DNA from: a virus
Direction: 5' to 3' (one strand)
DNA: 41,518 nucleotides
IMG/VR virus record: IMGVR_UViG_3300044825_002344
Location: 1 to 41,518 of that record
This document shows, piece after piece, positions 8,884 through 29,498 of this stretch (positions are counted from its first letter, which is position 1; each line of letters begins with the position of its first letter). The notes under the pieces are model-generated. The model was not told the DNA's origin. It saw only the letters and a program-made list of their open reading frames with translations, and ran no database searches. The translations under genes were made by a program, and so were the position numbers.

Positions 8884-10293
8884 CTACGCGGACTCAAGGG
8901 CTGCAACTTTGGCCTCAAGGATTTCAATCTTGGCCAGCGCCTCTTGCAGTGCCTTTGTTAATGGTGCAATGAATTGGTCATAACGCAGTCCTTGATCACT
9001 ATCGGGATTGCTTGGGTCATCCAAAATCCAACCACCGAAGTCAACGCCAGCAGCATCAACTGCTTCTTTTACTTCTTGCGCTACAAAACCCCAGTGGGTC
9101 CGCTTACCTGGAACTTCTTGATAAATCCAATTTCCTTCGGAGTCTGTCTCGCCAGTTGGCTTGTTGCCTCCAACGATAAACTTATAGGAAACAGGGCGCA
9201 AAGATTTGACAAAATCAACTCCAAGAGATGAAGTGACGATCTCTGTCTTTTGTCTAGCATCGGACGTCTGGATTGTTCCATTTGCAGCGTAGACAGCAAT
9301 CCATCGAAGATTTGTTCCTCCGCCTAGATATACGGCGTTGTCTGTTGCAGGTTGCAGATAACTAGAGTTACTAATCGTACAGGTTCCACTGCTATTAATC
9401 CTCATCCGCTCCGTCGGGCTGCTCGCTCCGTCGGCGGTCGTCGCCAGAACAATTCTGCCCGGAAAATCATTTGTTCCAGTTGTGCCGTCTGCTTGGCAAG
9501 CGATGTAGCCGTACTCACCCGCGCTTGCATCACTAAAAGAAAGAATCCCAACACTTACGCCATTGCCAACTGACGCTGTTGGTAGCGTAGAACCAATGCT
9601 CAGAACACCGATATTTCCGGAGGTGTTCCCTGCTACGTGAAGCTTGCTGAGAGCTGCATTCCCTCCGGTAGGAGCAGAAGACGTGCCAACTAAAAAACGA
9701 CCACTTGAGTCCCAGCGGCCTCTTTCGGTGCCGTTTGTACCAAACAAAACTGGATGCGCTCCACGCGCCCACCCTGCGTACACGTTATTTGAAGAATCTT
9801 GTCCATAAAGCGCGCTGTTAGTTTGAGGCGTATTTCCATTGCCTGCCATCTCAAGCAAGCAGTTCTGGCCTGAACCATTTGCAACCCAAACATCACCACC
9901 AGCGCCATTGCTGACAATGTGTAGCTTAGTGCTAACTGAATTAGTGCCAATCCCTACTCGGCCGCTGCTGTCAATAAACAACCTTCCAGTGCCATTAGTT
10001 GAGATGGCTACTTGGTCTGCACCAGGAGAGTAAATACCTGTGTTGGGGTCATCAACAAAGCTCCATGTTGGAGCAGAAGCGCTCCCTAAAGACTTTGCTT
10101 CAATTTGACCTGCACCATCAATTAGCAGGCGCTGTGTACCACCTGTTGTAAATGCAATCTGATCAGCGCCTGTTGAATAAAGACCAGTGTTTGCGTCCCC
10201 AGTAAATGTAATACTCGGCGTCAATGCACTGCCGCCAGTAAATTCAATTGTTGCTACCTTGCCATCAAGTAGTTGGGCCTTGGTCTGAGACAC
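8884..10293 (-). CDS. Tail fibre with C-terminal S74 intramolecular chaperone
   Basis: A 469-aa trimeric-fibre-type protein. The N-terminal about 110 residues hold two copies of a TGLY/TGIYSPGADQ...RL.ID module. A middle beta region follows. The C-terminus is a peptidase S74 intramolecular chaperone, beginning at TSDARQK near residue 341, with FVKSLRPVSYKF, HWGFVAQEV and a terminal coiled coil (ALAKIEILEAKVAALES). In this family the chaperone drives trimer folding and cuts itself off at the serine of the SDxRxK motif, which is present here. It is probably a receptor-binding fibre. The repeat module is shared with the proteins at 28458-29498 and 30228-30632. Confidence 0.88.
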   Translation of the reverse strand: MSQTKAQLLDGKVATIEFTGGSALTPSITFTGDANTGLYSTGADQIAFTTGGTQRLLIDGAGQIEAKSLGSASAPTWSFVDDPNTGIYSPGADQVAISTNGTGRLFIDSSGRVGIGTNSVSTKLHIVSNGAGGDVWVANGSGQNCLLEMAGNGNTPQTNSALYGQDSSNNVYAGWARGAHPVLFGTNGTERGRWDSSGRFLVGTSSAPTGGNAALSKLHVAGNTSGNIGVLSIGSTLPTASVGNGVSVGILSFSDASAGEYGYIACQADGTTGTNDFPGRIVLATTADGASSPTERMRINSSGTCTISNSSYLQPATDNAVYLGGGTNLRWIAVYAANGTIQTSDARQKTEIVTSSLGVDFVKSLRPVSYKFIVGGNKPTGETDSEGNWIYQEVPGKRTHWGFVAQEVKEAVDAAGVDFGGWILDDPSNPDSDQGLRYDQFIAPLTKALQEALAKIEILEAKVAALESA

Positions 10294-14699: not shown

Positions 14700-15146
14700 T
14701 CAACCAGCTTCTGGAATTGTACCTTCAGCCCAAGAAGGCGTTTTAAACGGCGTTTTCTTTGGCTTTTGAGTAATATTCTCCAAAGCCTTGGCGTAACTGA
14801 GCTGTGCTTCTGTTAAGCGATCACGCGCAGCTTCCCTTGCCGGTGCAAACCGGTCTGGAGCCATGAATCCGCGATCGGCGCGACTGAAAAAATCTTCCTG
14901 TGGGATGGACGCCAAATAAGAAGCAGCTTCTTGCGCTTGGATACCTGCTTGCCTTGCTCCTGTTTCTGCTGGCGTGCCAGCTTGCAAGTAGCGCTCCTCA
15001 AGTGCTACGTCAGTATCAGCTTTGATACGGCCTAGCTGCTCAGCCAGATCTTTATAACTTTTCTGTGGAACAACCGACTGCAGCAGCGTTGGCGATGTTG
15101 CTGGCTGCATAACTATGGTTGACGGGCTTGGGGGAGAACCGCCCAT
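14700..15146 (-). CDS. Hypothetical protein, 148 aa, helical
   Basis: Mostly helical and rich in Ala, Gln and Glu (YKDLAEQLGRIKADTDVALEE and ARQAGIQAQEAASYLASIPQE), with a Pro-rich N-terminus and a Pro/Lys-rich C-terminus. It resembles the 303-aa product at 10882-11793 in composition. It is the only minus-strand gene inside the plus-strand island and starts 56 bp from a divergent plus gene. It might be a stray virion protein. No motif was recognised. Confidence 0.5.
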   Translation of the reverse strand: MGGSPPSPSTIVMQPATSPTLLQSVVPQKSYKDLAEQLGRIKADTDVALEERYLQAGTPAETGARQAGIQAQEAASYLASIPQEDFFSRADRGFMAPDRFAPAREAARDRLTEAQLSYAKALENITQKPKKTPFKTPSWAEGTIPEAG

Positions 15147-17791: not shown

Positions 17792-17994
17792 TGGATTACG
17801 AAGAGTTTTTACAGCATTACGCTCCCGAACTTCAGTTAATTGATGCACTCGATAGGATCAGTCGTTACTGCCCTGACGCGGCGGCGACGATAGACTGCTG
17901 GGTTTCTCAGACCAATAACGAAAAAACCGACGCAGAGATTCCCCAGACGGATACCACTCAACCATCTTTCGCTCCAGATATTCAATCGCCTTGA
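17791..17994 (+). CDS. Small hypothetical protein, 67 aa
   Basis: The ATG overlaps the previous stop (TAATG), which argues for translation. The product begins with a short helix pair (YEEFLQHYAPELQLIDALDRI), then becomes polar and Thr/Pro-rich. Its last 137 bp lie antisense to the 3' end of the lysozyme-like gene at 17858-18598, so only its first third is free of overlap. It may be real because of the coupling. No function visible. Confidence 0.4.
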   Translation: MDYEEFLQHYAPELQLIDALDRISRYCPDAAATIDCWVSQTNNEKTDAEIPQTDTTQPSFAPDIQSP

Positions 17995-18598
17995 TTTGTG
18001 TAGGTGATCCGTTGTAAGTATCTGCAAGATTTAATAAGCAAATCTTTGTCGCACATTTATGTTGAACTTGTGTCGGAACTTCTTTATCAGGAGCAAGGTA
18101 TAAATCCAATTCAACACGACGGCGTTCAATCATCTTCTCTCCTGCCGAACGCCAAATAGTGTTGATATAAGGACTCCACTCACGAATAATATCTTTCTTT
18201 GGGGCTAAGGAATTAATTAGATCGAGTAATTTACATTCTTTAAAAGAAGAAAAGCTTAGGCTATGAGCAAAGCTAAGAATTGCAGCTTTTTTGTTGTCGT
18301 TTAACGGCACAAAAATGTACTGAGCAACTAAATCCGAGAACTCTTTTAAGTCCTCAACAAGTTGCGTTTCAATCTGCTTTCTCGTAGCTTTCTCGTGCCA
18401 GCTAACCCACCGCTTGCCTAGCTTTTTACTCCCATAACCAATTCTCCAAATGTCTTCGCCATAGTCTTTATATGAAGCAAAACGCCCCATACCAACATCA
18501 GTACGGGGCGCTGTATAGCGCCGAATCAATTCGATTCCGCGCTCAGTTAAAAAAGGGTGATTTTGAAGCTCGTCTTCCTGTTTTTTCTTACGGGACAT
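17858..18598 (-). CDS. Degenerate lysozyme-like (GH24-related) protein
   Basis: Start chosen at the ATG at 18598 (MSRKKKQEDEL); a frame extension would overlap the upstream gene further. Residues about 15-165 align with T4-type lysozyme: ERGIELIRRY, then YKDYGEDIWRIGYGS, then FVPLNDNKKAAILSFAHSLS and WSPYINTIWRSAGEKMIERRRVE. The position of the catalytic Glu (usual EG-L after the first helix) is not acidic and carries an insertion. The Thr of the E-D-T set is Arg (WRIGYG), so muramidase activity may be lost. About 80 extra C-terminal residues follow. It may be a virion or baseplate lysozyme-like domain. It sits in an operon with nblA. Confidence 0.65.
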   Translation of the reverse strand: MSRKKKQEDELQNHPFLTERGIELIRRYTAPRTDVGMGRFASYKDYGEDIWRIGYGSKKLGKRWVSWHEKATRKQIETQLVEDLKEFSDLVAQYIFVPLNDNKKAAILSFAHSLSFSSFKECKLLDLINSLAPKKDIIREWSPYINTIWRSAGEKMIERRRVELDLYLAPDKEVPTQVQHKCATKICLLNLADTYNGSPTQIKAIEYLERKMVEWYPSGESLRRFFRYWSEKPSSLSSPPRQGSND

Positions 18599-18974
18599 CA
18601 ACGCTGCCGTTGTAGGCAACCTCACTGTAACCGTCCAAGTTCAGTAATACAACATAATTTTTGCTGGCGTCGGTCACGGTAACAGCTACTACACCCTTAC
18701 CCTTGCCGTCCTTGACAATATTGGCAAATTTAGTGTAGCCAGTAGGAGAAGAGCCGCCTGTATAAGCATCTTCTTGGAAAATCTCCATCGTAGTGATGCC
18801 GACCGAACGATCGAGCTTAACGATGATGTCACCAGTTGAGCTTGGGTTGACGCGGAAACCGCGAATGTCCAGACCACCCGTGGAACCGGCAGAAGTGTTA
18901 CCCAGATAGGTGACTTCGGAACCAGCGTTAACAGTGAATGTGTCGAGAGTACCTTGAATGGTGCGGATGGCCAT
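18588..18974 (-). CDS. Small virion-type beta protein, 128 aa
   Basis: All-beta composition rich in Gly, Thr and Val (FTVNAGSEVTYLGNTSAGST, GDIIVKLDRSVGITTMEIF, AVTVTDASKNYVVLLNLDG). This is like phage head decoration or tail-tube small proteins. It overlaps the lysozyme-like gene by 11 bp and lies 5 bp below the nblA-like gene, so all three are likely co-transcribed. No exact family recognised. Confidence 0.6.
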   Translation of the reverse strand: MAIRTIQGTLDTFTVNAGSEVTYLGNTSAGSTGGLDIRGFRVNPSSTGDIIVKLDRSVGITTMEIFQEDAYTGGSSPTGYTKFANIVKDGKGKGVVAVTVTDASKNYVVLLNLDGYSEVAYNGSVDVP

Positions 18975-18979
18975 GGTGA

Positions 18980-19195
18980 TTACGAAATTTGCCCGATCGT
19001 GGCGAGATTAAAGTTGATATCGGCATCAATGCCGTGATCTTTCAGGATCCCTAAGAACATTTGACGATCCAGGGCTTTTTGATGGAGTAACTCGATGAAA
19101 GCTTCTTCCAGCTCGTCTCGGTCCATGTTCTGGATCGCTAGGGCGGCGGCGTGGATTGAGAACTCCACATCCATTGGTAAGTTCAACGCTTCCAT
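18980..19195 (-). CDS. nblA: NblA-like phycobilisome degradation adaptor
   Basis: This 71-aa protein has the size and helix-loop-helix pattern of NblA. EFSIHAAALAIQNM corresponds to the family's EFS(L/I)...Q(V/I)Q.M helix, then a helix (ELEEAFIELLHQKALDRQ) and a tail with ILKDHGID. L51 and K52 match the conserved Leu/Lys implicated in phycobiliprotein binding in host NblA. NblA docks the Clp protease onto phycobilisomes so that the pigment-protein antenna is degraded. Phage-borne nblA is known in freshwater and marine cyanophages, and its presence predicts a phycobilisome-containing host. It is co-oriented with downstream virion genes. Confidence 0.8.
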   Translation of the reverse strand: MEALNLPMDVEFSIHAAALAIQNMDRDELEEAFIELLHQKALDRQMFLGILKDHGIDADINFNLATIGQIS

Positions 19196-19542: not shown

Positions 19543-20337
19543 ATGCCAGAAAATCACCTGCTTTCTTCATTCATGCGTGGCGCAGTAGGTGGCGTCAGTA
19601 AGGCGCAGCTAATCCGAACATTCAAAGAACAGCATGGATGGACAGATGCGGATATTTCACAGGCAATTCAACTTTGTAGTTTTAAACAGAAACCTAAACA
19701 AGTAGATTACGCAAGTTTCTATAATCTTCCTGTCACCAAAAAAGGCAAACGCATCTTTTACCCGTTTACTCAGATTTACACAATTGACAATTTCTTGACG
19801 GCACGAGAATGCAATGATCTAATCAAAATTATCGATGGAAATTTACGACCATCTACGGTGTCAGACCCAAAAGATTCTTGCACAGTGTCGGATTATCGCA
19901 CCAGCAAAACGGCAGATTTGCACTACTTTGAAGATCCTTTTTACCTAGAAATAGATAAAAAGCTGACTGATGCACTGGAAATTAGTCCTTTCTTGGGAGA
20001 GACAATGCAGGCGCAGCGGTACGAACCAGGACAGTATTATAAAGAGCACTGGGATTTCTTTTCTCCTACCACAAAAGAATATAAAGTTTACTGCGATTGG
20101 ATGGGTCAACGTACCTGGACCACCATGATCTATCTAAATGATGTAAAAGAAGGAGGTGAAACTTACTTTAAATATCTAAAACTACGTCTAAAGCCGAAGC
20201 AAGGCACACTCGTTGCTTGGAACAATCTTTATAAAAACGGCCTACCTAATCCTAAGACTATGCACGAAGCTTGTTCACCAATTAGTGGAAATAAGTATGT
20301 AATTACCAAGTGGTGGAGAAGTTGGCCGCTGATTTAA
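19543..20337 (+). CDS. 2-oxoglutarate/Fe(II)-dependent oxygenase (prolyl 4-hydroxylase-like)
   Basis: A 264-aa protein with the prolyl 4-hydroxylase double-stranded beta helix. The Fe-binding triad is H169-x-D171 (EHWDFF) and H241 (TMHEACSP). K251, within KYVITKWWR, is positioned to hold 2-oxoglutarate. QRYEPGQYY and TMIYLNDVKEGGETYF are typical family strands. The N-terminal about 75 residues form a helical extension (SKAQLIRTFKEQHGW). It is the only plus-strand gene in this part, with minus-strand genes on both sides and a 4-bp tail overlap with the next. It probably hydroxylates a protein or a phage/host molecule; the target is unknown. Confidence 0.88.
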   Translation: MPENHLLSSFMRGAVGGVSKAQLIRTFKEQHGWTDADISQAIQLCSFKQKPKQVDYASFYNLPVTKKGKRIFYPFTQIYTIDNFLTARECNDLIKIIDGNLRPSTVSDPKDSCTVSDYRTSKTADLHYFEDPFYLEIDKKLTDALEISPFLGETMQAQRYEPGQYYKEHWDFFSPTTKEYKVYCDWMGQRTWTTMIYLNDVKEGGETYFKYLKLRLKPKQGTLVAWNNLYKNGLPNPKTMHEACSPISGNKYVITKWWRSWPLI

Positions 20338-20678
20338 TTGGCCGCGATGCTGAATTTAACGACAGCATTAGTTCCACCAGTCTCTTTTAAAAAATTACCT
20401 CTAAGAAAGCCTACTGGCGCACCGTTCACATAATAAGGATAAGTGCCATTTTCTGTGATTGTATTGGAAATGAGTGGCCCATAATTAGTGCCGTCAATAC
20501 TCCCATCCAACCGCACAACTACGGATGTGTCGATATTGCTCACAGTTGCAATCAATGTATAGTTACGCGTTGAGAGGTAATTTGTCACCAGTACATCGAC
20601 AGCCTCAGTGACTCCTGGAGAAGTCAGCTCTGGAAAATTCTGAACAAGAGTCTGCTGATAACTCTCAAAATAACCCAT
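20334..20678 (-). CDS. Small virion-type protein, 114 aa
   Basis: A beta-rich protein (NYTLIATVSNIDTSVVVRLD, GSIDGTNYGPLIS, GFLRGNFLKE) that resembles small phage structural or fibre-accessory proteins with a Greek-key-like pattern. It is convergent with the plus-strand oxygenase (4-bp overlap) and ends the minus-strand fibre cluster. There is no catalytic motif. An inverted repeat at 20726-20754 lies in the 83-bp gap upstream of it. Confidence 0.55.
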   Translation of the reverse strand: MGYFESYQQTLVQNFPELTSPGVTEAVDVLVTNYLSTRNYTLIATVSNIDTSVVVRLDGSIDGTNYGPLISNTITENGTYPYYVNGAPVGFLRGNFLKETGGTNAVVKFSIAAN

Positions 20679-20725
20679 AACTCTCTTTTTTGTACAGCAC
20701 TAATACATTATTATGAAGCAGCCTT

Positions 20726-20754
20726 CGCTACTCAGAATTGCGCAAGAAGTAGCG
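20726..20754. repeat. Inverted repeat between fibre genes
   Basis: CGCTACT (20726-20732) and AGTAGCG (20748-20754) form a 7-bp stem with a 15-nt loop. It lies in the 83-bp gap between two minus-strand genes. No U-tract follows on the minus strand, so a weak regulatory or processing hairpin is possible, but a terminator is not shown. Confidence 0.4.
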
Positions 20755-20761
20755 TTAGCGA

Positions 20762-22189
<1,428 letters not shown>

Positions 22190-22191
22190 TT

Positions 22192-22401
22192 TTATGTCTT
22201 AGAAACAGTAAGCAGGTTGTTACTTCCGTCATATGTCAAAACAAGCGTTGCCACAGTGACACCAGCGGAGCCGCCTACCTTATAAATTACTCCTGTCAGA
22301 TTGCTGCCTGTGTAAGAACAGGATACATAATCGTGAATTGGGATATTCAAGCCTGTCATTGTAATAACAGGCTTTGTTCCGCTATTTACATTGACAGTCA
22401 T
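22192..22401 (-). CDS. Small beta protein, 69 aa, fibre-associated
   Basis: The product has alternating beta strands (KPVITMTGLNIPIHDYVSCS, TGVIYKVGGSAGVTVATLVL, LLTVSKT) with no helix or membrane segment. It is translated 2 bp above the collagen-like fibre and is probably a fibre accessory or tip subunit. A promoter at 22424-22452 precedes it, so it is the first gene of this unit. No family is recognised. Confidence 0.55.
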   Translation of the reverse strand: MTVNVNSGTKPVITMTGLNIPIHDYVSCSYTGSNLTGVIYKVGGSAGVTVATLVLTYDGSNNLLTVSKT

Positions 22402-22423
22402 GGAGTATCACAAGCCTAAATTT

Positions 22424-22452
22424 ATTATAGCTTTTTAAGGACTATTTGCCAA
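22424..22452 (-). promoter_or_regulatory. Sigma-70-like promoter
   Basis: On the minus strand, TTGGCA (-35) lies 17 bp upstream of TATAAT (-10). The -10 is 23 nt before the ATG at 22401. The -35 sits inside the 3' end of the dps-like gene. This is the best promoter match I found in the window and would drive the 69-aa gene and the collagen-like fibre. Confidence 0.55.
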
Positions 22453-22906
22453 GATTGCTTTTGATTAGCCATTGAAATTTCTTGTGCGTTCGCCCACGTT
22501 CAACAGCCAAATCCAATGTCAATTGGTCATCAATTGTCTCTGCCATCGATGCTAACTCTCGGAATCGGTCTGCTAACATATTGTGATTTGTTGCAAGCTG
22601 TCTAAGAATGACTTCTTGAGCAAAACAGTCTTCTAAGGGGACCCCTGGCATATTAGAGTAAGTCAAATCTTCTACGGTTTTGGGAGTGCCGATATCGAGA
22701 GATCGGATATGTTCAGCAACAACGTCAATGCCTTCTTGCATTTCTTCGTAAATATCTTGCGTTAACTTATGAATTGAATAGAATTTACCGCCCATTAAAC
22801 CCCAATGCACCAGCAAGGTCTGCTGATAAACGTACATTGAATCGCGCAAACACTGAACAAGCTGCGAATAACAAGTTGTTGTCTTTTCTGAAAGTTGCTT
22901 TGCCAT
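22442..22906 (-). CDS. dps: Dps-like ferritin / DNA protection during starvation protein
   Basis: The 154-aa product fits Dps: LLVHWGLMGGKFYSIHKLTQ, then EEMQEGIDVVAEHIRSL. The ferroxidase set H34, H46, D61, E65 matches the E. coli Dps ligands H51, H63, D78, E82 by spacing; the D67 position is Gln50. Length, helix pattern and a C-terminal Lys-rich tail fit a 12-mer shell that oxidises and stores iron and binds DNA. This is unusual cargo for a cyanophage and may protect phage DNA or scavenge iron under host oxidative stress. It is in a minus-strand run with a small basic conserved protein upstream. Confidence 0.82.
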   Translation of the reverse strand: MAKQLSEKTTTCYSQLVQCLRDSMYVYQQTLLVHWGLMGGKFYSIHKLTQDIYEEMQEGIDVVAEHIRSLDIGTPKTVEDLTYSNMPGVPLEDCFAQEVILRQLATNHNMLADRFRELASMAETIDDQLTLDLAVERGRTHKKFQWLIKSNLGK

Positions 22907-22911
22907 TTAGA

Positions 22912-23181
22912 TCACCACGCAGCACAGGCCCAGTAGCCCGCTGTTAGTTTACTTTTTTTCTCGTCACAGTTGTGTCGAGCACGGAAATTTTTCCGACGTT
23001 CGGGATTGTCACGCTTGATTTCCATATTAGCGTCACCAAAGCGAATAATCTTTTCTTGACCATTCTCGCAAGCTTTAACAACAAACTTCTTTCCGCCTTT
23101 GGTTTCACGGCGCGGCTTGTTGCACTTCATCCGCTCCTTATGTGCTTTCGCCAGTGATTTAGCTTTTGCGTGGTCTGCCAT
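22912..23181 (-). CDS. Conserved basic Cys/His phage protein, 89 aa
   Basis: The protein is strongly basic and carries a conserved phage motif: IRFGDANMEIKRDNPERRK, then FRARHNCDEKKSKLT, then AGYWACAAW. C34-like and C-terminal cysteines could bind zinc. Members are found in marine phages, often of unknown role. It lies 5 bp above dps on the same strand. Nucleic-acid binding is a reasonable inference from charge, but not shown. Confidence 0.75.
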   Translation of the reverse strand: MADHAKAKSLAKAHKERMKCNKPRRETKGGKKFVVKACENGQEKIIRFGDANMEIKRDNPERRKNFRARHNCDEKKSKLTAGYWACAAW

Positions 23182-23183
23182 GA

Positions 23184-23378
23184 TCAGACTTGAATAGCAC
23201 CAGAGCGAACCATACTGGCGATATCCTGCGGTTCTCTTCCTTTTAAGGCGTAATCACCCTCTGGAGGTACGCGCTCATCTTGTAACTCTTGAATAACCTC
23301 TTCAACGCCTTTAGCGTAATCGGTCAGAAATCGTTGTGGGTCAGGTCGCGACCCAGCCGATGTAGCAGTCATTGGCAA
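23184..23378 (-). CDS. Small hypothetical protein, 64 aa
   Basis: A helical product (RFLTDYAKGVEEVIQELQ, then PPEGDYALKGREPQDIA). The start lies inside the 3' end of the HNH gene (38-bp overlap) and the stop is 2 bp from the next gene. Tight packing supports it being translated. No family recognised. Confidence 0.5.
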   Translation of the reverse strand: MPMTATSAGSRPDPQRFLTDYAKGVEEVIQELQDERVPPEGDYALKGREPQDIASMVRSGAIQV

Positions 23379-23760
23379 TATACGGAACAGCAGGTCCCGC
23401 AGAGGATAACTTTATGGAGCAGGGTTTTTGCTCCATCCATTTGGTGATTCTAGCAAGCCTTTCCTCGCTGTAATTGGGGTGATCTTCACTTAACCAATCC
23501 TGAAGTAATGTGCTTGCTTTGGCACGATTACAGTTGCAACAAGCAGCACACATATTGTTCTTGACACTGTGGCCGCCCTTGTGCTTTGGCACAATATGAT
23601 CAATTGTCGCAGTATTTTCGTCTAATTGTTTATCACAGTAAGCACATTTCCAACCCCAAGACTCAAAGATGTGCTCTCTAAATTTTCGACGGGCAAGTTT
23701 CGGAGTGAGAACGATTAGGTTCGCTAATAGGTCTTGCTCGCAATGGAACATGATTGTCAT
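23341..23760 (-). CDS. HNH endonuclease
   Basis: A 139-aa product with an intact HNH finger: CAYC (C39, C42), DHIVPKHKGG (D54-H55 catalytic region), NNMCAACCNC (C74 and C77 as the second pair, N69). The first 30 residues are helical. It could cleave DNA as a homing enzyme, a packaging co-nuclease or a defence nuclease. It is upstream of a basic phage protein and dps on the minus strand. A hairpin (ATGCACC/GGTGCAT at 23759-23788) includes the start codon and may limit translation. Confidence 0.88.
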   Translation of the reverse strand: MTIMFHCEQDLLANLIVLTPKLARRKFREHIFESWGWKCAYCDKQLDENTATIDHIVPKHKGGHSVKNNMCAACCNCNRAKASTLLQDWLSEDHPNYSEERLARITKWMEQKPCSIKLSSAGPAVPYIANDCYIGWVAT

Positions 23761-23788
23761 GCACCGATGACAAAACTGTATGGTGCAT
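23759..23788. repeat. Inverted repeat over the HNH start codon
   Basis: ATGCACC at 23759-23765 and GGTGCAT at 23782-23788 pair in a 7-bp stem with a 16-nt loop. The stem covers the ATG of the HNH gene at 23760 (minus strand). It could be an RNA hairpin that controls expression of the nuclease or an operator. Confidence 0.4.
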
Positions 23789-23821
23789 AAACCCTCCCAG
23801 TGCGCTATCCTTGTACTGTTC

Positions 23822-23895
23822 GCCCGAGTGACCCAGCGGAACGAGGTACTCGACTTAAAATCGAGCAGTCGGCGGTTCGAATCCGCCCTCGGGTA
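23822..23895 (+). tRNA. tRNA-Leu (UAA), short variable loop
   Basis: A 74-nt cloverleaf: acceptor GCCCGAG/CTCGGGT (one G-U), anticodon arm CTCGA-CTTAAAA-TCGAG with anticodon UAA, T arm GGCGG-TTCGAAT-CCGCC. The D stem has three pairs, as in class II tRNAs. The variable region is only 5 nt (CAGTC), whereas tRNA-Leu normally has a long variable arm. The 3' CCA is not encoded. It reads UUA codons. Confidence 0.85.
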
Positions 23896-23898
23896 TTA

Positions 23899-23970
23899 CG
23901 GGGTGTAGCGCAGCGGTAGCGCGTTTGGTTTGGGTCCAAAAAGTCACAGGTTCGATCCCTGTCACCCCGA
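23899..23970 (+). tRNA. tRNA-Pro (UGG)
   Basis: A 72-nt cloverleaf: acceptor CGGGGTG/CACCCCG (7 bp), D arm GCGC-AGCGGTA-GCGC, anticodon arm TTTGG-TTTGGGT-CCAAA with anticodon UGG, T arm ACAGG-TTCGATC-CCTGT. CCA is not encoded. It lies 3 nt after the tRNA-Leu and reads proline CCA and, by wobble, other CCN codons. Confidence 0.95.
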
Positions 23971-23972
23971 TT

Positions 23973-24043
23973 GGCCCTGTAATTTAATGGTAAAATAATC
24001 GCCTTGTAAGCGATCATTCTCGGTTCAAATCCGAGCGGGGCCT
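23973..24043 (+). tRNA. tRNA-Thr (UGU)
   Basis: A 71-nt cloverleaf: acceptor GGCCCTG/CGGGGCC (with a U-G pair), anticodon arm ATCGC-CTTGTAA-GCGAT with anticodon UGU, T arm CTCGG-TTCAAAT-CCGAG, discriminator U. CCA is not encoded. The last base meets the stop codon of the minus-strand ORF at 24043. It reads ACA and other ACN codons. Confidence 0.92.
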
Positions 24044-24279
24044 TAATCAGTTAAACCAATATCAACATCTTCTGCTGGGTCGTAATCAGCGTCCTCTAGA
24101 ATCTTCAATAGGAAGTAATGGACACGCTCCACGACCCAACGCAGATCATCGTCGCTAACGTCGCACACAATGGCGTCTAGGCGCAACTCACGCGATGGCT
24201 GGCGTATGTGTTCAGCCAGCAGTTCAAGGGCCTTGTAGCGCCCCTTGTTGAGTTCGCCTAGCATCCCATCACAGTGCAA
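24043..24279 (-). CDS. Small hypothetical protein, 78 aa
   Basis: A helical, acidic product (YKALELLAEHIRQPSRELRL, then DDDLRWVVERVHYFLLKILE, then DADYDPAEDVDIGL). It overlaps the 3' end of the next upstream ORF by 11 bp and ends at the tRNA cluster. The compact overlap and amphipathic helices support it being real. No function is recognised. Confidence 0.5.
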   Translation of the reverse strand: MHCDGMLGELNKGRYKALELLAEHIRQPSRELRLDAIVCDVSDDDLRWVVERVHYFLLKILEDADYDPAEDVDIGLTD

Positions 24280-24511
24280 TGTTTACAGCTTCATCATCAG
24301 CGGGCTCATCAAGATTCTTTTTTAAAATATCAAGAATCTCCATGGCGCCTTGTACCTTTAAATAACCTTCTTTTGTGGTGATGAGGGCTGTTTCGGCTGC
24401 ACGGATATCATTTGCAAGCTTTGCAAGCTGTGCTTTCAACCCGTTTTCCAATTCTTCAATTTTTTCAAGCATGGTTTTAACGGCAGTGACAGAAGTATAC
24501 CTAAACTTCAC
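24269..24511 (-). CDS. Coiled-coil small protein, 80 aa
   Basis: Starts at a GTG overlapping the stop of the endolysin gene (GTGA), so it is coupled to it. The sequence is a coiled coil (MLEKIEELENGLKAQLAKLA, then NDIRAAETALITTKEGYLKV). Its position just after the endolysin suggests a lysis or virion accessory role, but no membrane segment is seen, which is against a holin. Confidence 0.6.
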   Translation of the reverse strand: MKFRYTSVTAVKTMLEKIEELENGLKAQLAKLANDIRAAETALITTKEGYLKVQGAMEILDILKKNLDEPADDEAVNIAL

Positions 24512-25758
24512 TTCCTGCGGAAGTCAATCCAACACCAGCCATTCGCACCGCCGCTGACAAAAAAACGCGGATTCATGTTTTTGAAGCTGTATTTAATGTT
24601 TTTACCAGCGACGGCACCTGTAGAGGCCCATCCGCCGTTGACAAGATCCAACTCGCCAAACGGATCCTGCACTAACCAATGCGTTTTGTCATAACCAGTA
24701 ATAACAACGAAGTGCCCGCCGCCAGTAGGGTGAGAAACAGTTCCATGATGAAGAATGCCGGCAACAACAGGGAGTCCCTTGTCAATTTGCTCTTTGACAT
24801 CTTGCTCATCCGCAGATAGCGTGAATTTAGCGTAAACGTCTAATTCTTCAAGGGCCTTGAAATGTGGCTCGCGGTGCGTCGTATCTCCGTATTTATTGAC
24901 GATTTTTAAATAGTCTAGGTCGTCGTTAATGCCAGGTACATCGAGATATCGCAGACACATGGCAATTGAACTGGTTTGACACTGGCGCCAGCCTTCTGGG
25001 CCATTGTCACGCTGGTAGAAGTAAGGAAAATTGCGGAGGTAACGCAGATCTCCCTGGATCGCATAAGGTTTAATACCAGTTTCGGTGAGCAGTCCGTCCC
25101 AGTGGGCGTCAAAAACCCACCACTTACCAAGGCCAAAACCAAGCTCAAGAAATGTGTGCTTATCCTTTCTGTCTAAAACCTTACATTCACGGATTGTCCG
25201 TCCCTGGTGAACCTTGGCTTTCTCATCGTTAGGTAGTTCAGCCGATGGGATTGGTTTTTTCTTAAGCCAAGTTTGCTGCTTGGAGGTAATGGTAATCATG
25301 CCAGTCTTAGGTGTCGGTGGATCTTGACAGAATAATTCAACTTCAGCCGAACGCCGACGATCTAACCCCGCTAAAACTTTGCCACCTGCTCCTTTATTCC
25401 AGCGTGGCAATTCCTCTTTTGCGACTGTATTTGGGTCTTCTTTGTTGTTTAAACGCTTTAATAACGTTGATTCCGCAAATGCACCTTCGCCGATGTTATA
25501 GACGAAGGATACTAAAGCGTCGAATTGAGTTTGGTTGAGAGGTGTTTTTGCATGACGAAGCACAGCTTGCTCAAATCGTTGCAGGTCTTTACGCAGAACA
25601 ACCTCAGCTTGCTGTTCAGTATATCGCTGCCCTGGCTTTACATCTGGACCAGTGTGGCCGTAGCCAATTGTTAAAACTCCAGCAGGGCAGATATAACTTG
25701 TCAATGACAGCCCCTCAAACGATTTAATTAAATCAACGCCAGCCTGCGATGTCTTCAT
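24508..25758 (-). CDS. Modular endolysin: GH24 muramidase plus C39-like cysteine peptidase
   Basis: A 416-aa enzyme with two cutting domains. Residues 1-145 are a GH24 lysozyme with the endolysin signature E-8aa-C-5aa-T: E15, C24, T30 in FEGLSLTSYICPAGVLTIGYGHT (E15 in FEG, T30 in LTIGYGH). Residues about 150-235 are a linker with SH3-like strands (KTGMITITSKQQTWLKK). Residues about 235-410 are a papain-like C39/NlpC-type peptidase: C260 (QCQTSSIAMCL), H349 (GGGHFVVITGYD), D365 (QDPFGE). It should hydrolyse both glycan and peptide bonds of peptidoglycan at lysis. Its neighbours downstream are coiled-coil and small genes. No signal peptide, so a holin is needed elsewhere. Confidence 0.9.
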   Translation of the reverse strand: MKTSQAGVDLIKSFEGLSLTSYICPAGVLTIGYGHTGPDVKPGQRYTEQQAEVVLRKDLQRFEQAVLRHAKTPLNQTQFDALVSFVYNIGEGAFAESTLLKRLNNKEDPNTVAKEELPRWNKGAGGKVLAGLDRRRSAEVELFCQDPPTPKTGMITITSKQQTWLKKKPIPSAELPNDEKAKVHQGRTIRECKVLDRKDKHTFLELGFGLGKWWVFDAHWDGLLTETGIKPYAIQGDLRYLRNFPYFYQRDNGPEGWRQCQTSSIAMCLRYLDVPGINDDLDYLKIVNKYGDTTHREPHFKALEELDVYAKFTLSADEQDVKEQIDKGLPVVAGILHHGTVSHPTGGGHFVVITGYDKTHWLVQDPFGELDLVNGGWASTGAVAGKNIKYSFKNMNPRFFVSGGANGWCWIDFRRK

Positions 25759-25776
25759 AGTAGTTTCATTTACGAT

Positions 25777-26484
25777 TTAACGTGCTTTGTCCCAAGCGCA
25801 GTGCGCTCTTTGACCATCTTGGAGCACATAATGGAAAAAGATATTGTGATAATAACAAGATTTTGCTTTTTTAAATAGACCTGCTTTCTCATAGGGCATG
25901 GGAGTTCTCTCGTGTGGCCTCTCTGCACCTTTGTATAAAATTCCATCACCTGGAGATAGATGAAGATCTTTCCATAACCCTGGCACCAAAATTTCGTTTT
26001 TATTTTCATCTGTATAAGTATCTGGCGTTTTAATACGGAAAGCCCAAGGTTCTTTTAAATCAGTAGAAACATGTACACTAACTGAAATTTCACACGCATC
26101 CCTGTCAACATGACGCTCAAGCCTCATGCCAGAACGATAAAACCTGTCGTAATAATAGGTATTGTAAAGTTTTCGGCCAATGATTTTTTCTAACTTTAAG
26201 CGTATCTCACTATGAATTGATCGGTATTGTGGGTGCCAATAACGTGCAGTGGACCCTTCTACTTGATTTTCTACAGGTAAATGCTCAAATTGATCTAATT
26301 TATTTCCCCAGTAATTTAACTGACCGCTAATTCTCGGGACAGGATGATATAACTCTCCTGCATTCCACAACTCTTTAATCACTAAATACCCGTTTTTTTC
26401 AAACTCTTCATTATGCGTCCACGCCGTTCCGGTGTTTTGTTTTTCAAGCAAATCAATCTGTTCTTCTGTCATTTTTTCTAACAT
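25777..26484 (-). CDS. 2-oxoglutarate/Fe(II)-dependent oxygenase-like protein
   Basis: Start at the ATG at 26484, supported by GAGG six nt upstream; an earlier ATG would overlap the upstream gene. The 235-aa product has H125-x-D127 (ERHVDRD), a beta-helix core with GDGILYKGAE, and H191 (RPHERT) as the likely distal Fe ligand. NIFFHYVLQDG completes the pattern of phage oxygenases with a YxG...H and FHYV ending. The N-terminal helix (MTEEQIDLLEKQ) and the middle (YYYDRFYRSGMRLE) fit the same family. It lies 7 bp after another oxygenase. Confidence 0.78.
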   Translation of the reverse strand: MLEKMTEEQIDLLEKQNTGTAWTHNEEFEKNGYLVIKELWNAGELYHPVPRISGQLNYWGNKLDQFEHLPVENQVEGSTARYWHPQYRSIHSEIRLKLEKIIGRKLYNTYYYDRFYRSGMRLERHVDRDACEISVSVHVSTDLKEPWAFRIKTPDTYTDENKNEILVPGLWKDLHLSPGDGILYKGAERPHERTPMPYEKAGLFKKAKSCYYHNIFFHYVLQDGQRAHCAWDKAR

Positions 26485-26491
26485 ATTTACC

Positions 26492-27112
26492 TCACTTCCA
26501 ACGGGGACCGACAGTCCACCCAACAAGAGATTTTCGAGTTCCTTTTGTAACTTTAAGAACCCTATGTTGAGTCCTAGAGTCGAATAGAATCATGGTACCC
26601 CTTTTACGTGGTGCCATGTAACTTTTATTCGATTCGTCTAAAAGTTGCAGGTTACCTCCAGCATAATCATCTTCATGAGAAAGCTGAAGGACAAAAGAAA
26701 GTTTGCGTACAAGTTCAATGTTTTCATTTAAGAAATCTTGAGCCAATCCTTCTTGACGATTTCCAACGCTTACAGGTTTGTACTGCGTTGCAATCCCTGC
26801 ATCGTTGTGCCAACCGTAAAATTGACCGACATCGTATTTAGTAAACTGCATCGATTCACCGTCAATGCAGCGTAAATCATATAAAAAATTCTCTCGATTA
26901 GCGCGTTCAATGTAGTGCCAAATAAATCCACCTACCCAATGCGTAGTTGGAATCCAAGCATTTTGCGAATTTCTTTTGTCTTTGTTAAGGGCATCTCCGT
27001 GCAATTTAGAGTCACCCATCTGCTCATCAAATTTTGACGTTAAGTCCCGTTCTATGATGTCTACTACGTCTTCGGGCAGGTCGGTAAAATACCAAATCGA
27101 TTGAAATGCCAT
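26492..27112 (-). CDS. 2-oxoglutarate/Fe(II)-dependent prolyl 4-hydroxylase-like oxygenase (PiuC type)
   Basis: A 206-aa PKHD/P4H-type protein. H102-x-D104 (WHNDAG), H183 (TQHRVLKVTKGTR) and R193 complete the Fe and 2-oxoglutarate set. LQLSHEDDYAGGNLQLLDE and RGTMILFDSR are the usual strands. It is close in shape to PiuC-like hydroxylases of cyanophages. An inverted repeat at 27121-27145 and a TTGACA element are right upstream, so transcription may be regulated. It starts a two-gene unit with the second oxygenase. Confidence 0.9.
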   Translation of the reverse strand: MAFQSIWYFTDLPEDVVDIIERDLTSKFDEQMGDSKLHGDALNKDKRNSQNAWIPTTHWVGGFIWHYIERANRENFLYDLRCIDGESMQFTKYDVGQFYGWHNDAGIATQYKPVSVGNRQEGLAQDFLNENIELVRKLSFVLQLSHEDDYAGGNLQLLDESNKSYMAPRKRGTMILFDSRTQHRVLKVTKGTRKSLVGWTVGPRWK

Positions 27113-27145: not shown

Positions 27146-27174
27146 AGTCTTAAGAGCACGGCAACTTATGTCAA
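27146..27174 (-). promoter_or_regulatory. Possible sigma-70 promoter upstream of the oxygenase genes
   Basis: On the minus strand, consensus TTGACA (27174-27169) is followed by 17 bp and AAGACT (27151-27146), which matches TATAAT at only three positions. The -35 overlaps the stop of the upstream gene. The inverted repeat at 27121-27145 begins right after the -10. Weak -10, so only suggestive. Confidence 0.35.
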
Positions 27175-27566
27175 GAATCTGTCAAGACCCAAGTTTGATT
27201 TTCTTCGTCCCAGACATAAAACAAACCAGCGTTGATTTGCGCTTCCGTAAGAACGGGAGGATCGCCTATGGGAGATACCCATTCACCTGTAGACTCATTT
27301 AAAACCCAACTATTAAAAGGCTGAGAGGCTATAAACGCATCTAGCTGTTCATCGTAAATCATCCCTATTCCAGCATAATTTTTTCTAAACGGTGTTCCAC
27401 CATTCACGTGAATTCCACTGCGCGTGTTATAGCTAGTTCTTTTGCAGGTTTGTCCCACAAAATTTCCGTAATGTTCTTCCCAGTCAATCCCATCTTCGCC
27501 TTCGTCTTTACCAACGATTACATGGGTGACAATATTGTTTTCATCTAAAAACGCGTAATGAGCCAT
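27171..27566 (-). CDS. Conserved cyanophage/marine phage protein, 131 aa
   Basis: The ORF could run from 27656, but the conserved product starts at ATG 27566 (MAHYAFLDENNIVTHVIVG), 4 bp below the upstream gene. The pattern DEGEDGIDWEEHYGNFVGQT, CKRTSYNTRSG, PFRKNYAGIGMIYDE is a widespread marine-phage family often found near fibres. It likely forms a small virion or adaptor domain. The C-terminal part carries PFNSWVLNESTGEWVSPIGD. No enzymatic motif. Confidence 0.8.
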   Translation of the reverse strand: MAHYAFLDENNIVTHVIVGKDEGEDGIDWEEHYGNFVGQTCKRTSYNTRSGIHVNGGTPFRKNYAGIGMIYDEQLDAFIASQPFNSWVLNESTGEWVSPIGDPPVLTEAQINAGLFYVWDEENQTWVLTDS

Positions 27567-27570
27567 TTGA

Positions 27571-28458
27571 TTAAGTCCAAGAAACGCTTCCAGTTCCAGC
27601 AGTGATTTGAGATACGCTGTCACCCCCGATGGACGATGTGCTGATTGTAAGCCCACCCCCAGGATTTGAAATTATATACGCATTTGGATACCTTAAAACA
27701 ACAAAACCCGAACCACCAGTACCTGTATTAACTGGAGCAGGGCCCACCAAAGGACTTGAATAACCGCCGCCTCCGCCCCCAGTATTAACCTGGCCGTTTG
27801 TGGCACTGACACCAGGGCCGCTTGGTGCATTGTAGTATGAGCCATCTCCACCTCCCCCTGTTCCGCCGAAACCACGCATAGGAGCACCAACGCCAGCAGC
27901 ACCACCGCCGCCACCACCCGCTCTAGTGACAGAGCTACCAGTAATCGAAGATGAAATACCTGGGCCACCGTTACCAGCCGCTCCTCCTGTTGGACTGGCG
28001 GTGCCGGGACTGCCTGACCCTCCAGCACCACCTCCGCCACCGCCACCTCTTGGAAGCACAGGTGCACCGGCTCCGCCTGGGAAACCTTGTCCTGGAATAC
28101 CTGCTCCGCCGGAAGTTCCAGGCCCGCTACCACCGCCGCCCGAGCCTCCATCTTGAAACGGTGGACTCGATGAATCTCCACCGCCGGTAGCCACTACTGG
28201 ACCAAAAACAGACGGAGACCCACTTCCACTAGTAGGGGTAAAGCCCGTAGCCCCGCCTCCTCCTCCTACCGTTACAGTGTAATTTGTGTTTGTAGATATA
28301 AGAACAGTACTTTCTAAATATCCTCCCGCTCCTCCACCGCCTGTTCCATTGTTTGCAGAACCACCAAATCCACTTCCTCCACCAGCAATAACAAGATACT
28401 GCGTAGTAAACGAAGGACTCTTTTCGCCCCCTCCCAACAGTAATTGAATGAGTGACAT
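27571..28458 (-). CDS. Glycine-rich tail fibre / adhesin
   Basis: A 295-aa protein of about 40% glycine by eye. It has TQYLVIAGGGSGFGGS near the start, then many GGGG runs and loops such as GGPGISSSITGSSVTRAGG. This is the polyglycine-II sandwich design of tail adhesins, as in T4-like phage S16 gp38. Its start overlaps the stop of the upstream fibre gene by one base. It is probably a receptor-binding tip for the fibre at 28458-29498. Confidence 0.75.
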   Translation of the reverse strand: MSLIQLLLGGGEKSPSFTTQYLVIAGGGSGFGGSANNGTGGGGAGGYLESTVLISTNTNYTVTVGGGGGATGFTPTSGSGSPSVFGPVVATGGGDSSSPPFQDGGSGGGGSGPGTSGGAGIPGQGFPGGAGAPVLPRGGGGGGGAGGSGSPGTASPTGGAAGNGGPGISSSITGSSVTRAGGGGGGAAGVGAPMRGFGGTGGGGDGSYYNAPSGPGVSATNGQVNTGGGGGGYSSPLVGPAPVNTGTGGSGFVVLRYPNAYIISNPGGGLTISTSSIGGDSVSQITAGTGSVSWT

Positions 28459-29498
28459 CAGGTTAAACCCGCTCCACTGATTACAAACGTATTACTAGCA
28501 ACACAAAGGATTGTAGCAATACCGTACTGGGCTAGTGTGCGGTTACCGGTGTTTGCGGTGCCTGCTTGACGCAGAGTAACACTGCTGCCTTGTGTGATCG
28601 TCTGGCTGCTACCACTATTGTTGTACACACTAACCACATCACCAACCGAAAAGACGCCGGCCGGCACTGTGACTCCACCTGTCGTGATACTAATGTGTTT
28701 ACCAAGATCACTCGCGATAAGACTATACGAAGTTGTTTGGCTGTTTTGTGGAATTGCGCGCACATTACCAGCCGTATCCGATACTGTGGTAGATGCCCTG
28801 ATTGCTCCTGTAACATCTAACGCAACGCCGGGACTGGTATTAGCTATTCCTACTCGGTTGTTAACCGCGTCAACGTAAAATGTGCTTGTATCGACAGTTA
28901 AATTTCCGTTTGAATCTATCGATAATCGAACGCTACCATTGGTCGAAATTGCTATTTGATCAGCACCTGGGCTGTAAATACCTGTATTCGGATCTGTAGT
29001 CCAGCTAAACGAAGGAGAGGAAGCGCTTCCTAAACTAACAGATTCAACTTGACCTGCCGAGTCAATACGGAGTCGCTCAGTGCCTGCTGTTGTGAAAGAA
29101 ATCTGGTTGGCACCAGAGTTATAAATGCCTGTATCTAGGTCACTGTCAAATGTAATGCTTGGTACCGATGCAGTGCCGCTCGGGAAATTAGCACCAACGT
29201 TTACATAGTCAGCCCCAGCAAGAATTACGCCAAAGAATGACTGTCCTGTTCCAGGAGCCGCACTAAAAATAATATTTCCGCCACTTAACCTAAAGCCACT
29301 AACGCCACTTGGGTCCGGCTTTTGAACAACACCATTAACAGAAATTAAACACTGTGACTCGTTCAATGGTTGCGGAACTGGCGCAACACCATTTACTAGC
29401 AGCGGAAACGACGTAGTTACACCATTAAAACTGCCAGAAATATTGTCAATATTCCGGTAGGTTGGAAATGCAACCTGAAGATCGTTACCTAAGTACAT
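28458..29498 (-). CDS. Tail fibre protein with shared attachment and SPGADQ modules
   Basis: A 346-aa fibre. The N-terminal about 110 residues (NIDNISGSFNGVTTSFPLL, CLISVNGVVQKPDPSG, QSFFGVILAGADYV) match the module at 7007-7696. Two modules of the type LDTGIYNSGANQISF and DPNTGIYSPGADQIA then follow, as in the fibre at 8884-10293. The C-terminal part is a beta domain (SSYSLIASDLGKHISITT, SSQTITQGSSVTLRQ). It is coupled to the Gly-rich adhesin by a one-base overlap. It probably builds the shaft. Confidence 0.82.
   Translation of the reverse strand: MYLGNDLQVAFPTYRNIDNISGSFNGVTTSFPLLVNGVAPVPQPLNESQCLISVNGVVQKPDPSGVSGFRLSGGNIIFSAAPGTGQSFFGVILAGADYVNVGANFPSGTASVPSITFDSDLDTGIYNSGANQISFTTAGTERLRIDSAGQVESVSLGSASSPSFSWTTDPNTGIYSPGADQIAISTNGSVRLSIDSNGNLTVDTSTFYVDAVNNRVGIANTSPGVALDVTGAIRASTTVSDTAGNVRAIPQNSQTTSYSLIASDLGKHISITTGGVTVPAGVFSVGDVVSVYNNSGSSQTITQGSSVTLRQAGTANTGNRTLAQYGIATILCVASNTFVISGAGLT

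Follow-up and report, generated by a model that had tools for sequence, protein, structure and literature searches.

The IMG/VR record IMGVR_UViG_3300044825_002344, a 41.5-kb linear virus fragment, was analyzed over its full length (positions 1 to 41,518, here called the window) with emphasis on three genes for 2-oxoglutarate (2OG)/Fe(II) oxygenases: oxygenase A on the plus strand, and oxygenases C and B, adjacent to each other, on the minus strand (Table 1). The host group of this virus is the cyanobacteria. The uncultured relatives G002 and G007 are collinear with the window, and the contigs of relatives extend to 75-88 kb; judged by primase, the closest isolate is the freshwater Synechococcus phage S-EIV1, which is remote (35% identity) and carries no PF13640 gene. 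The three open reading frames (ORFs) were confirmed at the coordinates given in an earlier note on this DNA, and all three are distinct 2OG/Fe(II) oxygenases, A and B by matches to Pfam PF13640 (2OG-FeII_Oxy_3; 54.9 and 57.4 bits, cut-off 27 bits) and C by its predicted fold and HxD...H set. They are not close duplicates: A and B have in common a single short BLAST segment of 20 residues around the HxD (E = 9e-4) and align weakly as profiles, and profile comparison of B with C found no similarity. The clustering within 8 kb stands as a description of the window, but the three genes were not inherited as a single cluster. A is a long-kept core gene and B-C is an acquired pair inserted 5.4 kb from it, which makes two separate origins; the larger contigs of the A lineage that were examined hold one PF13640 gene apiece, one contig having a weak second.

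Oxygenase A (264 aa) consists of an N-terminal three-helix part followed by a catalytic domain at residues 66-264. Profile searches of the PDB matched it to Bacillus anthracis prolyl 4-hydroxylase (P4H), human C-P4H alpha-2 and Chlamydomonas P4H-1 (E = 4e-36 to 2e-26). The AlphaFold (AF2) model of A (predicted local distance difference test score, pLDDT, 94.5) was superposed on Chlamydomonas P4H-1 with bound (Ser-Pro)5 (3gze) at Z 28.0 and a root-mean-square deviation of 1.7 Å over 193 residues; this was the top fold match by a wide margin, with PHD2 entries at Z 18 and below. The iron triad H169, D171 and H241, the 2OG lysine K251 and the substrate-site counterparts E153, Q156, R190 and W257 are invariant in 38 relatives, and position 166, also in the substrate site, is Tyr in 34 of the 38 and Phe in the rest. 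Nine positions, matched by hand from the alignment to 2jig, correspond to E127, Q130, Y140, H143, D145, R161, H227, K237 and W243 of the Chlamydomonas reinhardtii enzyme (Cr-P4H), whose iron-binding residues have been described, as have the roles of E127 and R161 toward the substrate (PMC5684110). A has in common with C. reinhardtii P4H-1 (3gze/2jig) and the collagen P4H alpha subunit the catalytic fold, the HxD...H...K set and counterparts of E127/Q130/Y140/R161/W243, but differs in being a phage protein, in its three-helix part and in an Arg that replaces His at the position after Trp-x. The B. anthracis enzyme (3itq, 5hv0), the top sequence-profile match (E = 4e-36), is a cellular gene product with no N-terminal helical part aligned, whereas the viral collagen prolyl hydroxylase vCPH of PBCV-1 (5c5t) shares the fold (Z 20.3) and is likewise a viral P4H, but comes from an algal virus and not from a tailed phage. 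The fold match and the conserved catalytic and substrate residues bear out the assignment to the P4H type: by predicted fold and residues A is a prolyl 4-hydroxylase, which would be expected to be catalytically active.

A is a syntenic core gene, transcribed from the strand opposite to its neighbors, which are an NblA-like gene, a gene for a 128-aa protein and an endolysin gene (69 loci, these being the IMG/VR loci fetched with A). In one clade what is left of A is a decayed N-terminal piece interrupted by stop codons (G044:64435-64575, equivalent to L274:7282-7422, and G043:6162-6302), so A was lost there. Cellular relatives of A include picocyanobacterial proteins, and judged by eye the N-terminal helical part is seemingly common to some of them. 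QQUU01000116.1 (L352) was assigned to a Bacteroidetes genome bin; it is a contig from a phage of the A lineage, with an A protein 63% identical and the neighboring genes present.

Judged from sequence, the Pro-rich N-terminal tail of the conserved phage protein encoded at 14700-15146 would be a better candidate substrate for A than the collagen-like fiber at 20762-22189. In the window the tail begins MGGSPPSPS..., in the genes occupying the same slot in relatives it reads, for instance, MGRKSPPPPTIIMPPPPPPP, and some of these add (Ala-Pro)n further along. A protein with such a Pro-rich tail was present in 39 of 39 slot-covering loci of the first set; no relative was found among phage isolates, and the conserved stretches of the family are too few for direct search. 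A Hint/intein-like domain (...HTYVCDGVLMHNKGG) stands directly ahead of an SPPPP tail in three of these loci (L115:927-1925, L127:874-1926, L135:862-1908) and also in L305, which has no A.

Relatives in which the A slot is present and A itself missing were located using the neighboring 128-aa gene as an anchor, and covariation was tested by phylogenetic generalized least squares on a tree built from seven other proteins, with 60 loci (11 without A), the relatives without A being fetched later. Loci with A had about two extra tail prolines (p = 0.005 for proline count, p = 0.0013 for proline fraction). A check for missed cases added three loci in which the slot protein is replaced, L316 and L322 with A and one without, after which the values were p = 0.036 and p = 0.013, respectively. 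Proline elsewhere in the 14700-15146 protein showed no link with A. Of eleven other proteins, ten were likewise unlinked in their proline content; the exception was Dps, with a small effect of opposite sign (p = 0.02). The link between A and tail proline is real but modest, given the three added loci, an A-absent phage that retains the tail (L310, below) and the roughly five A-absent groups on which it rests.

Oxygenase C had no match in the Pfam scan and no meaningful match in the sequence search of the PDB, and the window protein matched no NCBIfam model. Its AlphaFold model (pLDDT 90.9) is a double-stranded beta-helix oxygenase, matching PHD2, bacterial P4H and SnoN at Z 13-14 over about 165 residues; amino-acid halogenases are also among the fold neighbors, and AlkB structures rank high in Foldseek. 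In 38 relatives H125, D127 and H191 are invariant, as are R193 and R226, candidates for the basic residue that would bind the 2OG C5-carboxylate. Eight of these 38 gave a weak match to PF13532, a 2OG family, and none matched the ferrochelatase Pfam (E up to 1). The HxD...H set is likewise invariant across a diverse group of nine proteins with the ferrochelatase annotation or class, ranging from S-PM2 to HTVC023P. A role for C as ferrochelatase was ruled out by the oxygenase fold, the HxD...H set and the ferrochelatase Pfam result; likeness to HemH consists of inherited annotation alone, and C differs from it in all three respects. By predicted fold and conserved residues, C is a 2OG oxygenase and not a ferrochelatase. 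On the evidence here, the nine diverse members examined are mislabeled as ferrochelatases, and the same is probably true of the whole family, relatives of C being found in 147 phage records.

Oxygenase B is similar to the PiuC/YbiX PKHD hydroxylases over a common C-terminal half (profile E = 3e-6, NCBIfam E = 1e-14), but it falls under every NCBIfam cut-off (54 bits against 143 for the PKHD model) and has no iron-uptake context; its membership of the PF13640 superfamily is above cut-off. In the T4-like cyanophage S-SM2, B is 85% identical to SSM2_035 and C 66% identical to SSM2_036, and in the tail-fiber region of that phage two further 2OG genes come after this pair, with similar arrangements in Bellamy and S-MbCM25; fiber genes neighbor B-C in all three. 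The S-SM2 cassette (T4-GC 412/615) and the window pair are orthologous, with the same order, short spacing and fiber locus, but the window belongs to a non-T4 phage and lacks the further flanking 2OG genes. Of 68 loci with C, 61 have B directly beside it, and in the pelagiphage HTVC023P a C-family gene stands beside two 2OG genes with a tail gene nearby. Two C-B fusion proteins were found, ACG-2014f gp197 (NC_047714.1, L350:1141-2229; 362 aa) and S-SCSM1 gp124 (NC_070962.1, L351:1234-2595; 453 aa), and such fusion hints at joint action of the two enzymes; both proteins are annotated as ferrochelatase. PHROG 61 spans 689 positions, and a long fusion was not found in the 16 genomes searched.

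The pair was acquired by the window's phage. Elsewhere in the A lineage a true B occurred in 0 of 33 records (fragments under 19 bits only), and B or C in 0 of 160 locus entries, which partly overlap. The insertion comprises B-C and the genes at 27171-28458, located between the core endolysin gene and a fiber gene, where G002 and G007 have other fiber sequence. A Gly-rich ORF lies within 4 kb of 47 of 66 B genes versus 4 of 82 A genes. The Gly-rich tip was considered as a specific B-C substrate and rejected, being equally common in fiber loci without B-C in the stretch examined.

Table 1. Positions of the oxygenase genes and associated features in the window.
Feature	Position	Strand	Basis
Conserved phage protein with Pro-rich N-terminal tail (MGGSPPSPSTIVMQPATSPT...), putative substrate of A	14700..15146	-	Family alignment, covariation
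NblA-like 71-aa protein beside A, divergently transcribed	18980..19195	-	NCBIfam NblA E 2.5e-4, Pfam NblA E 0.057
Oxygenase A, P4H-type 2OG oxygenase, 264 aa	19543..20337	+	PF13640, PDB profiles, AF2 model, invariant residues
Fiber/tip protein combining a short run of Gly-X-Y with a Gly-rich domain at the C terminus	20762..22189	-	PF21722 Gly_rich_2
15 Gly-X-Y triplets, residues 69-113 of the preceding	21851..21985	-	0 Y-Pro, 5 X-Pro, 1 Y-Lys
Dps-like ferritin	22442..22906	-	PF00210; NCBIfam Dps under cut-off
Core endolysin, left cassette edge	24508..25758	-	Phage_lysozyme + Peptidase_C39_2; 70-72% identical in relatives
Oxygenase C, divergent 2OG oxygenase by predicted fold, family annotated "ferrochelatase" (T4-GC 615, PHROG 2954)	25777..26484	-	AF2 fold, invariant HxD...H
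Oxygenase B, PKHD/PiuC-like (HxD...H...R), paired with C	26492..27112	-	PF13640; weak PiuC/YbiX similarity; S-SM2 match
Fiber-locus gene of cassette, PHROG 7759	27171..27656	-	Relatives in many marine phages; cluster c30 in T4-like B-C loci
Gly-rich tip protein of cassette	27571..28458	-	PF21722, 66 bits; missing from G002/G007
Tail-fiber protein, right cassette edge	28458..29498	-	PHROG tail-fiber matches; partial homology to G002/G007

Two further observations concern the phage as a whole. A short stretch of the window (9397-9451) is 93-100% identical in DNA to tail-fiber genes of the cyanopodoviruses S-CBP4 and S-RIP1, pointing to recent fiber exchange. Separate endolysin-like genes at 17858-18625 and 24508-25758 are each conserved in the lineage, the second having an extra C39-like peptidase domain.

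The explanation preferred here, with a probability of roughly 45%, is that two independent protein-modifying systems, A acting on the Pro-rich tail and B-C acting on the fiber module, met by chance in one phage. A would be a lineage-specific phage prolyl 4-hydroxylase whose groove takes up a polyproline-II segment and which 4-hydroxylates proline using Fe(II), O2 and 2OG, and its most likely target would be the Pro-rich N-terminal tail of the 14700-15146 protein. A stricter proposal, that this P4H is the phage's own enzyme dedicated to the tail of its own protein and that enzyme and tail co-evolve, is put forward tentatively. B and C would form a functional 2OG oxygenase pair that travels with distal tail-fiber genes and most likely hydroxylates a fiber or tip protein of its own module. 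From the observations above we infer catalytic activity, the substrates of A and of B-C and any effect on the virion.

Several points weigh against this explanation. The A-bearing clade of L316 and L322 has a different slot protein without a proline tail, and its A is divergent (290-304 bits) with the HxD retained, while the A-absent phage L310 retains a Pro-rich tail with 9 prolines, versus 12 in its nearest A-bearing relative. The covariation depends on about five A-absent groups, and the candidate was chosen because it is proline-rich, a choice for which testing on new loci compensates only in part. The 14700-15146 product need not be a virion protein, and A lies on the strand opposite to the fiber genes. 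Gly-rich tips also occur in fiber loci without B-C nearby, so linkage alone cannot name the substrate of the pair.

Other substrates were weighed for both systems. Collagen P4Hs act on X-Pro-Gly, with proline at the Y position of the repeat. That A (or B or C) hydroxylates the collagen-like fiber, as the earlier note had proposed, is very improbable: A belongs to the collagen-P4H fold class and the fiber, with its 15 Gly-X-Y triplets and one Y-Lys, lies 0.4 kb away, but none of the 15 triplets has proline at Y and G002 and G007, both of which keep A, lack the fiber at the corresponding position. The Pfam scan of the fiber matched PF21722 and no collagen family, two of the 33 A-lineage contigs had a collagen Pfam above cut-off (some may be hidden by fragmentation), and a Gly-X-Y run of at least 8 occurred in 1 of 65 B loci, the window itself. 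On triplet content and co-occurrence this fiber was rejected as a substrate of A, and of the earlier suggestion that fiber proteins are hydroxylated there is left a fair reading for B and C, which reside in a fiber module. A host protein as the target of A, such as EF-Tu, which the Pseudomonas and Bacillus P4Hs hydroxylate, or a photosynthesis-related protein, would make A a host-takeover enzyme beside the NblA-like gene; among the fold matches are P. putida P4H in a structure with EF-Tu and a Bacillus P4H whose entry title names EF-Tu as its target, the NblA-like gene adjoins A, and A shares its strand with replication and early-type genes. This is nonetheless rather unlikely, as the nearest fold is that of the Chlamydomonas-type P4H, proline in the tail of a phage protein covaries with A, and the NblA-like gene is kept in relatives after A loss.

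Modification by B-C of a sugar, lipid or other small molecule, on the host surface or as a fiber glycan, draws on the Nol-like carbamoyltransferase beside B-C in P-RSM4, a sulfotransferase family with nine ORFs at B-C loci, and the presence of SnoN and amino-acid halogenases among the fold neighbors of C; against it, B is PKHD/PiuC-like, PHD2 and P4H dominate the matches of C, and fiber genes are the commonest partners of the pair, and we consider it unlikely. Cyanophage oxygenases have been discussed in terms of 2OG/NtcA modulation, DNA repair and heme/iron chemistry via the "ferrochelatase" (PMC3037559, PMC2984593, PMC9599517). Consumption of 2OG or sensing of iron and oxygen that steers host metabolism would accord with the proposed 2OG drawdown and AlkB-like repair (PMC3037559, PMC2984593), with the discussed ferrochelatase-oxygenase partnership (PMC9599517) and with the AlkB structures found for C, but is improbable given that C is, by its predicted fold, not a ferrochelatase, that B-C travel with fibers and that fold and residues mark A as a peptide P4H. 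The related idea of joint iron and oxygen control with Dps and NblA was not supported: B-C is missing from every relative with A and Dps, and relatives without A keep the NblA-like gene and often Dps. The NblA assignment is itself weak, the protein scoring under all cut-offs (NCBIfam 21 bits versus 100, Pfam 14 versus 25); the gene product has 87% mean column identity in relatives.

Cyanophage 2OG oxygenases and P4H-like viral auxiliary genes are already known (PMC3037559, PMC2984593, PMC9602691, PMC9301287), and 2OG oxygenases are among the commonest unexplained cyanophage genes, with up to 24 per genome (PMC9602691). In the open-access literature no paper was found that names a substrate, that connects a P4H of phage origin with a proline tail on a phage protein, or that treats prolyl hydroxylase together with cyanophages or hydroxyproline together with the virions of phages. 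The relabeling of the C family and the fusions of C with B seem to be new, and could be known outside that literature; the ferrochelatase label underlies published heme and iron reasoning for phages (PMC3037559, PMC9599517). Two testable pairs are offered, a P4H with one Pro-rich phage protein and an oxygenase pair with its own fiber module. If the assignment of A to the proline tail is true, this would be a phage-made hydroxyproline protein, here joined to a fiber-borne oxygenase pair.

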